Under the pieces are notes generated by a model, which saw only the letters and a list, made by a program, of their open reading frames with translations, made no database searches and was not told the origin of the DNA. Below are positions 22,101 through 25,100 of a DNA stretch of 64,000 nt, piece after piece. This DNA comes from Eriocheir sinensis (Eukaryota; Arthropoda; Malacostraca; Decapoda; Varunidae). Each line of letters starts with the position of its first letter. Position 1 is the first letter of the stretch. The translations under genes were made by a program, and so were the position numbers. The DNA is taken from NCBI RefSeq assembly GCF_024679095.1, contig NC_066520.1, forward strand, positions 15,750,831 through 15,814,830, given 5' to 3'.

Positions 22101-25100
22101 TCGAACACTCATAACCGGTCACTGTCACGAGCCATGTTTTTATGTACGGTACGGTTATCACTATCACTCGTATAATGTTCCATCCTCGAGCACTCACATG
22201 TAATTGCTCACTAACTCTATCACGAGGAAGGAGTGGAGAGGCAGGGAGGGCATAGTGCAGGAGAGGAGGCGAGGAGGAAACGGTTGGATGGCTGAGGCGT
22301 CTGAGTTAACCTAATATTACAGTCGCTTGCTTCACACACTCATCATTCTCCTACTCTTCGTCCTCTCAGCACACTCCACTTATCCGTCCAGCAAGTTTGA
22401 ACGGCAGAATAATACCGAGTGATACGGTGGCGAGGCGAGGAAGAAACGGTTGGATGGCTGGGGCGTTTCAACAAGCTCATACACGTCTGAGTTTAAATAA
22501 TATTACACTCGCCTACGTAACCAACTCTTCTCCTCTCTCGGTCCTCCCAGCACACCCCGTTTACCCATCCAGCAGTCACTAACGATCATTTTAACGAGGT
22601 AGTTTGGTAGTTTTTCAGACTCGTTCATTTCCCTTACATAAACGCTCACTATGTCGTTGTCGATATAGATCGTTATATATATATATATATATATATATAT
22701 ATATATATATATATATATATATATATATATATATATATATATATATATATATATATATATATATATATATATATATATATATATATATATATATATATAT
22801 ATATATATATATATATATATATATATATATATATATATATATATAAATATATATATATATATATATATATATATATATATATATATATATATATATATTG
22901 TATTGAAGTGCAGTGCAGTGCCGGCTGAGCGGTGCGTGCCGCCGCGTCAACAGAGCCTTTCAGGGGATGCCTCGTTTCTAATTTGAGCGTGTCTTCACCT
23001 TGTCGGGTTATCCCGGGTCGACAGCAAAGCGGGGGCTCGGGAGGACTTCAAAGGCGGGGACACGTGCCTCGCATGAAGTGCGATTCATGCAATTTAGGTG
23101 TGGAAGCTCTTGACGGGAGGGTTCGTTGACTCCAAGGGGATTTACTGTTCATGGAGCGTCATTCTGCTGGAAAGGGTACTATGGCCACGTGGCCACAAAC
23201 ATTGATGATGATAAGTAAATATGAATAGGAAAAAGTCAGTTTCCTTTAATAAGTACGTGCATAAAGAGCACTGTGTGTAATATGTCTAAAATATTTGCCC
23301 TGAAATCTGTAGCCGAACACTAAATGAATTTAGCTATCGGAATCTTCATTTGTTGGAGACGAAATCAGTTTTCTGTACAATGACAAGGCTAGTTCATTCT
23401 TGTGTACACGTAGTTTGCTGCCTAGTGTATTACCTTGATTACTTTCGTCAATGATTGTAGATTATTCATCAATTGACATCTTGTTTGTCGACCCTGCATC
23501 TTTCCCCGGCCTCAGCCTCTCCTCAGGACCTGCCTTGTGCCTCCTTCTCAATGCCCTAGTTGCCTCCTCTTGCAGGTAGCCCTCGAGGTTCTCAGTTACC
23601 ACAACTCTTGCTCTGACGACGAGCTTGACGCCCTGCAAGCTGAGAACGTTACCAAGCCTATCCCAGGGGTCGACGAGTAAGTAGGAAGCAGTTGAGCGGA
23701 GCGTCTGTCTGTGTCTGCAGCCGTGCCCTCGTTTCACCCATCTATAGTAATTTGGTTTTCTCTTTCATGCTCTGGCCCGTGGATGACTACTAACCTGTCC
23801 TCGTCTCTCCTGACTCTCTTTTCAGGGCCTATTTTAAGACACACCACGGACCTATTCTCTTTAGGCCCCCAATCCATGACTTTTTGGACACCTTCATGAA
23901 AATTTTGCCCTTTTTTAAAACTACACCAAAACCAAAACACATAATGTAGTGTCAATCCACCCCTCCATTCTAGAAACACCAATCCTCACACACCAACAAA
24001 GAATACATCAAGAAGGAAGTCAAAGAGGGTGTATCTGTGGTAACGTGTCTATCTTCTCCCTCCCACACACACAACACCACAACACCACCACTCTTAACTC
24101 CTCCCCGTCATCACCACACCACCACTCTTAACTCCTCCCCATCACCACCACCACTCTTAACTCCTCCCCATCACCACCACCACCACCAAAGTTCCGTGTG
24201 CTATCATGGAACACTCTCTGATCCTTCTAATCTAAAGGCTGCCGGGCCTGACACCACCCCGCTCTCCCGCACACCCTCCCTCCACACAGCCCGCACAGCA
24301 CCACAGCTCCTCTAAAAGATTGCCCCTCCTCGTTCAACTCTTGCAGGTAGCTCTGGAAATGATGAGCTACCACAGCAGTTGTGCGCCCCTCGAGCTTGAT
24401 ATGTTGTCAAGGGAAGAGGTGCCAGGTGTCTTGCCAGGCGTAGATGAGTAAGTATAGGAGGGAGGGAGGCGGGGAGAAGGGGCTGCGCTTGGCGACTGAG
24501 ATAAAGGGAGAATTGTAAAGGAAGAAAGTAAAGGGCAGGGGTGGGGGTGGGGGGGGGGGGGTTGTACACTCAGATTTCCTTGGTCCCCGTTACTCAAGTT
24601 GTCTACGTGTGTGTGTGTGTGTGTGTGTGTGTGTGTGTGTGTGTGTGTGTGTGTGTGTGTGTGTGTGTGTGTGTGTGTGTGTGTGTGTGTGTGATTTTGT
24701 TTTTAGATATGCAGCTTCAACGATGCAATAAGCGGTGGAATGTTTTGACCGAATAGGAGATTTGACTGCTGAGTTTGTGTGAAGGGAGGGGGGGGGTCGT
24801 GAATGTTCGTCTGTCTGTCTGTATGTTTGTCTTTTTGTCCATCTTTTTATCTGCCTGTCTCTGTCTGTCTGTCTGTCTGTCTGTATGTATGTATGTATGT
24901 ATGCAAGGATGGATGTATCTATGAATGTAGGTTAGGTTAGGTTAGGTTGAGGTTAGGGTAAGGTGGGGTTGGAGAAGCGTGTGTGTGTGTGTGTGTGTGT
25001 GTGTGTGTGTGTGTGTGTGTGTGTGTGTGTGAAGGGGATCCAGGAAGCTGCTAATAAGGTCATGCACGCCTCACACACACGCTCAGCCGCTCACTATCCA

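Follow-up and report, generated by a model that had tools for sequence, protein, structure and literature searches.

A tandem exon pair predicted to provide two alternative GAF-to-catalytic linkers in a crab PDE10 gene

The PDE gene in the 64,000-nt stretch of Eriocheir sinensis DNA analysed here (the window) carries, between the parts that encode its GAF-B and catalytic domains, two neighbouring exons of equal length that encode similar peptides. This locus raises the question whether splicing chooses between the two exons and what such a choice would mean for the enzyme. The preliminary description of the window had proposed a frame-enforced, mutually exclusive exon pair at the GAF-to-catalytic linker of a PDE11 gene. 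Its account of the pair at the linker stands, and one of the two exons, 6b, is found in the predicted E. sinensis protein P0003; the gene name does not stand, as the gene is read here as PDE10. We regard 6a and 6b as a tandem homologous pair from which splicing probably selects the stretch that joins GAF-B to the catalytic domain.

The linker exons and their reading frame

The gene is readable on the plus strand from 3734 to 35469, and tblastn of P0003 (isoform X3, predicted) matches window exons from residue 245 onward; residues 1-244 gave no match within the 64-kb window. The N-terminal regulatory part (3734..3874) and the end of GAF-A with the helix after it (4598..4831) were placed by tblastn of P0003, with approximate BLAST bounds. 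GAF-B starts in the exon at 6785..6985, which was assembled from 6798 and whose acceptor at 6785 agrees with P0003, and continues in the exon at 18056..18269. The exon at 19830..19931 encodes the end of GAF-B and the linker helix, ends in ...RRSEQKYK and is the upstream neighbour common to 6a and 6b, while the exon at 28289..28526, in which the catalytic domain starts, is their common downstream neighbour. The HDLDHRG motif lies at 29700..29858 and is followed by catalytic exons at 30436..30605, 31475..31586 and 33550..33630 and by the final coding exon with the stop codon at 35185..35469; like the GAF-B exon at 18056..18269, these were read from the window and matched by P0003.

Exon 6a (23576..23676) and exon 6b (24347..24447), both on the plus strand, were read from the window and translated. 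Each is 101 nt long, is entered in phase 0 and leaves two bases, and both have the same acceptor, CTCTTGCAG, and the same donor, GTAAGT. The leftover bases, GA in both cases, form an Asp codon with the opening base of the downstream exon (28289). The encoded peptides are VALEVLSYHNSCSDDELDALQAENVTKPIPGVD and VALEMMSYHSSCAPLELDMLSREEVPGVLPGVD, i.e., linker versions VALEVLSYHNSC...PGVD for 6a and VALEMMSYHSSC...PGVD for 6b, and the latter is the linker of P0003. Coordinates, lengths, phases and shared splice sites are exactly as first described. The position of the pair at the GAF-to-catalytic linker was likewise confirmed by Pfam, which found two GAF stretches and PDEase_I in P0003; GAF-B ends at 524-525 and PDEase_I runs from 626, and exon 6 encodes residues 542-574 between them.

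Used singly, either exon yields an open frame of 549 residues that runs from 6798 up to the stop codon of the last coding exon (35185-35469). Joining 6a to 6b creates a TAG at the junction (GA+GTAG), since 6a leaves GA in front of the GTAG with which either exon opens; skipping both exons shifts the frame, and a stop follows within the exon after them. The assembled frames thus uphold the proposed enforcement of exclusivity, as either including or skipping both exons breaks the frame. Messages of both faulty kinds would be expected to be removed by nonsense-mediated decay, since several exon junctions lie downstream of the early stops. Exclusive use of 6a or 6b would follow from the frame, and the database isoforms that carry the linker versions are predicted models. 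Both exons would be expressed, with the choice presumably made by tissue or stage.

Other ways of keeping the exons apart were considered. Incompatibility between U2 and U12 splice sites was rejected, as the borders are GT-AG and both exons have GTAAGT donors. Steric exclusion was rejected as well, because the intron between 6a and 6b (23677..24346, plus strand, GT-AG), at 670 nt, is probably too long a spacer. Enforcement by the frame would be the remaining fail-safe for the choice.

The introns of the crab PDE10 gene are full of simple repeats. The 3' half of the intron between the two exons (24047-24346), directly upstream of 6b, is a CAC-rich simple repeat with 24 YCAY per 300 nt, compared to a mean of 5.1 over gene-region windows; this count is reached by 0.3% of gene-region windows and by 1% of all windows. 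Such a stretch could presumably mean splicing control of the Nova/pasilla type, and as a repeat it is given no weight as evidence. A search of Rfam returned no match at gathering level. Tandem repeats of approx. 110-130 bases were spotted by eye in the PDE10 introns at 27400-27850 and 21500-21880, and a minisatellite-like repeat, with translated units around GREGEREGHKRGGTSTVSPLSPLYLE, lies at 35911-36840, just 3' of the PDE10 stop.

Exons 6a and 6b are identical at 56/101 nt and 19/33 aa, and tblastn of either exon against the 64-kb window finds its partner at an E value of 2.9e-9, which bears out the homology of the two linker peptides. A third linker copy was not seen in the window, where the next tblastn match had an E value of 0.08 with 6b as query and 0.78 with 6a. 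Among the 19 shared residues, 13 are encoded by different codons. The comparison of synonymous and non-synonymous change that had been suggested for 6b was run between the two exons by the Nei-Gojobori method and gave a pS of 0.80, which is saturated, and a pN of 0.36. When unconstrained copies with an equal number of changes were simulated (n=5000), none kept at least 19 residues, and 64% acquired a stop. Saturated pS, the lower pN and the absence of comparable identity in the simulations together argue, at the sequence level, that exon 6b is an old protein-coding copy, neither a recent duplicate nor a relic.

Identity of the gene

The name PDE11 was not borne out. Among the best 60 of 79 PDB matches of the catalytic part, PDE10A chains scored 300.9 bits and the best non-PDE10 chain 240.9 bits, and no PDE11-named chain was present. 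For the GAF part, the PDE10A GAF-B structure 2zmf scored 203.9 bits and the next match, PDE5, 171.8 bits. When GAF and catalytic parts were searched as one chain, the top matches were full-length PDE5 chains (437.9 bits); no full-length PDE10 chain was among the PDB matches listed for this query, and the domain-wise searches are therefore the fairer test of identity. Where the 164 protein hits described below name a family, it is pde-5, PDE10 or PDE10A, many names being generic, absent or shortened; PDE11 occurs in no listed name, with the same caveat on generic or shortened names.

The C. elegans gene pde-5 is described as the PDE10 orthologue, and PDE11 as having a similar tandem-GAF layout (PMC12346295). 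By its sequence matches, the window gene is PDE10, and its database name, pde-5, follows the C. elegans PDE10 orthologue. The shared layout is what speaks for PDE11; against it stand PDE10A as best match of both the catalytic and the GAF parts among solved PDB structures, and the family names of the hits. A second locus of this genome, on contig C5 (L027), also counts against PDE11, as its catalytic motifs look PDE11-like by their signature. PDE11 identity of the window gene was thus rejected, and the chance that it is correct is virtually nil.

Duplicate linker exons were not found at the other crab GAF-PDE loci, where a scan for the linker motif covered selected stretches of the loci on C371, C24 and C5. 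One linker each was seen at C371 (L010) and C24 (L022), and in the stretches scanned on C5 the only match was a chance-like one on the minus strand in L026. A further PDE catalytic match of nearly 750 bases with two internal stops, L001 (G000:C13:19350636-19354379), is possibly a retrocopy or a short-intron gene.

6b-type linkers in other crustaceans

Linkers were examined in 164 PDE10-family hits, i.e., the best 120 of 2494 matches from a first search plus 44 additional ones from a second, which used a 6b-type linker region as query and gave 94 matches. The protein database groups sequences at 90% identity, and as a rule this conceals one isoform of each species, leaving mostly one linker version visible per species. 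The search of other crustaceans that had been proposed was productive: 6b-type linkers (MSYH, with Met) occur in 7 of the 164 proteins, and Leu is found at this position in the other 157. All seven proteins are malacostracan and come from the crab Eriocheir, the spiny lobster Panulirus, the prawn Macrobrachium, the krill Meganyctiphanes, the mantis shrimp Oratosquilla and two woodlice, Armadillidium vulgare and A. nasatum; four of these genera were placed in Malacostraca by lineage look-up, and we take Panulirus and Macrobrachium to belong there as well. A region search with a 42-residue 6b stretch recovered 4 proteins from 5 candidates and was too strict for counting.

Linkers of the 6a type were found in six other named malacostracan proteins, from Scylla, Penaeus, Procambarus, Cherax, Hirondellea and A. 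vulgare (P0014), and the amphipod protein P0013 has a 6a-like linker only. No 6a-bearing protein of E. sinensis was seen among the proteins examined, and 6a of this species is known from the genome only; such a protein may be hidden in the 90% cluster of P0003, which has 8 members. Both linker versions appear to be represented in one species by the A. vulgare gene models P0014 (6a-like), which is flagged 'UNVERIFIED_CONTAM' by its source, and P0052 (6b-like), which lacks two other stretches. In their aligned parts these models differ at 23 positions, and 21 of the 23 mismatches fall at P0014 residues 479-508, which cover the linker together with the codon that straddles the exon boundary in the crab.

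In a tree built on 33 columns, six 6b linkers cluster together (89/77 support, 87% of bootstraps). This cluster branches with rows from molluscs, tardigrades and deuterostomes (88/77) and not with the malacostracan 6a rows, and the tree is therefore silent on when the copy arose. Crab 6a and crab 6b are more alike (19/33) than crab 6b and woodlouse 6b (17/33). According to the NCBI taxonomy, mantis shrimp, krill and crab belong to Stomatocarida and the woodlouse to Peracarida. Because 6b-type linkers occur in both groups, the exon pair is likely to be older than the decapod/isopod split, and a single origin before that split is the simplest reading of these sequences.

Predicted consequences of the linker swap

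Class-specific residues were sought in an alignment (A1) of 69 proteins, with 6 6b rows and 63 others, numbered by P0003. Residue 547 is Met in 6/6 6b rows and Leu in 63/63 others, a partly circular contrast, since the class was first recognized by this residue. Ser/Thr at residue 554 is found in 54/63 non-6b rows and in 0/6 6b rows, and Asn at residue 551 in 44/63 and 0/6, respectively. In the AlphaFold model of P0003, residue 547 is the end of a helix and residue 554 lies just before the next helix, 555-562. The best structural matches of this 6b model were full-length PDE2A and PDE6 and PDE10A catalytic domains. The linker helix is unbroken (450-491) in the 6a model from Scylla, whereas the Eriocheir 6b model shows a break in it at 536-538 and has pLDDT <50 at 536-549. 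The confidence of both models is low, with linker pLDDT of 43-48 at 531-550 of P0003 and 55-67 at 471-490 of P0004 and whole-chain pTM of 0.48 and 0.54; because of this, and because the models come from different species, the difference in helix continuity is only suggestive and is treated as a lead.

In PDE2A, cGMP at GAF-B is described as moving the coiled-coil linker and activating the enzyme (PMC7590022), and in simulations of PDE6 a kinked linker helix would impede dimerization (PMC10819763). By analogy with this linker movement and these helix kinks, the swap could change coupling or dimer geometry in PDE10. Depending on the splice choice, the enzyme would be made with one of two linker versions; in the 6b version, Met would take the place of Leu where the linker helix ends, and the Ser/Thr expected to cap the following helix would be missing. 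These changes would alter the stiffness of the helix that passes GAF-B occupancy to the catalytic dimer, and the outcome would be a second set-point for the same PDE10 enzyme. The swapped helix is likely to be the element that relays regulation to the active site, and on balance we favor a change in GAF-to-catalytic coupling or in dimer geometry as what the pair is for. The fuller picture, which can be put forward tentatively and as something short of probable, is a splice switch that already existed before isopods parted from the line of decapods, krill and mantis shrimps, and by which one PDE10 gene would yield two enzymes with the same sensor and active site and different wiring.

Other explanations of the pair need to be weighed against this one. 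That 6b is a relic or an artefact of gene prediction, and 6a the sole working linker, is very improbable; the 6b protein records are gene predictions, judging by their names, but P0003 uses 6b, 6b-type linkers occur in 7 malacostracan proteins, amino acids have been constrained between 6a and 6b, and 6b has intact splice sites and no stop. In our estimate, the two exons are very probably a real alternative pair that is used. They could still serve mainly as an expression switch, with regulated mis-splicing lowering the PDE10 level and the peptide differences mattering little, as the products with both or neither exon run into early stops that are followed by several exon junctions. For this purpose, however, one frame-breaking exon would suffice, and the class-specific residues common to mantis shrimp, woodlouse and crab suggest that the peptides matter, which leaves an expression switch improbable.

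Instead of GAF-to-catalytic coupling, the swap could affect the binding of partners, the choice of dimer, modification or location, a possibility that we consider rather unlikely. The Ser/Thr at 554 that is common in non-6b rows and absent from 6b rows would be consistent with it, and the part after the helix is the most variable among the alignment rows displayed. That Ser/Thr, however, equally fits a plain helix cap, and we know of no partner or modification at linker site 554.

Vertebrate PDE10A splice variants, of which human PDE10A19 is on record (PMC4872433), share the enzyme family with the crab gene. The known variants differ at the N-terminus and are not known to differ in the linker. 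The exon swap itself resembles that of PKM1/PKM2 in pyruvate kinase, where a swap of homologous exons is described as changing allosteric and oligomer behavior (PMC7954323); there the enzyme is unrelated and the effect was measured, while for PDE10 it is predicted. The splicing logic is shared with tandem mutually exclusive exons of arthropods, such as those of the muscle myosin heavy chain gene (PMC2257972), which is a different gene, whereas crab PDE10 has a single pair and encodes a signaling enzyme. In a linker-engineered, light-activated PDE2A, the linker between sensor and PDE catalytic domain has been described as setting the coupling (PMC7590022); that protein is a man-made fusion, whereas in crab PDE10 natural splicing would make the change. 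No report of mutually exclusive exons in PDE10 or PDE11 was present among the open-access matches listed, subscription papers and bioRxiv being outside this set, and within that literature the initial statement that no such switch had been described in PDE11 holds and extends to PDE10.

Signaling from GAF to catalytic domains is hard to study, because the changes introduced into the linker are artificial. The 6a and 6b enzymes would represent a natural pair, matched except for 33 linker residues and occurring in several crustacean orders, and their comparison would be a direct test of the GAF coupling model. As cyclic nucleotides are described as serving hormone signaling in crabs and shrimps (PMC2714851, PMC5874034), the isoform choice may matter for the physiology of these animals.

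Two further open stretches were seen in the window. The plus-strand frame at 15314-15964 had no Pfam match and resembles the tail of a LINE reverse transcriptase. On the minus strand, the frame at 58324-59172 matches the Pfam family Glyco_transf_49 weakly, at 20.2 bits where the cut-off is 27, and may be an exon from a gene for a glycosyltransferase of the dystroglycan type.
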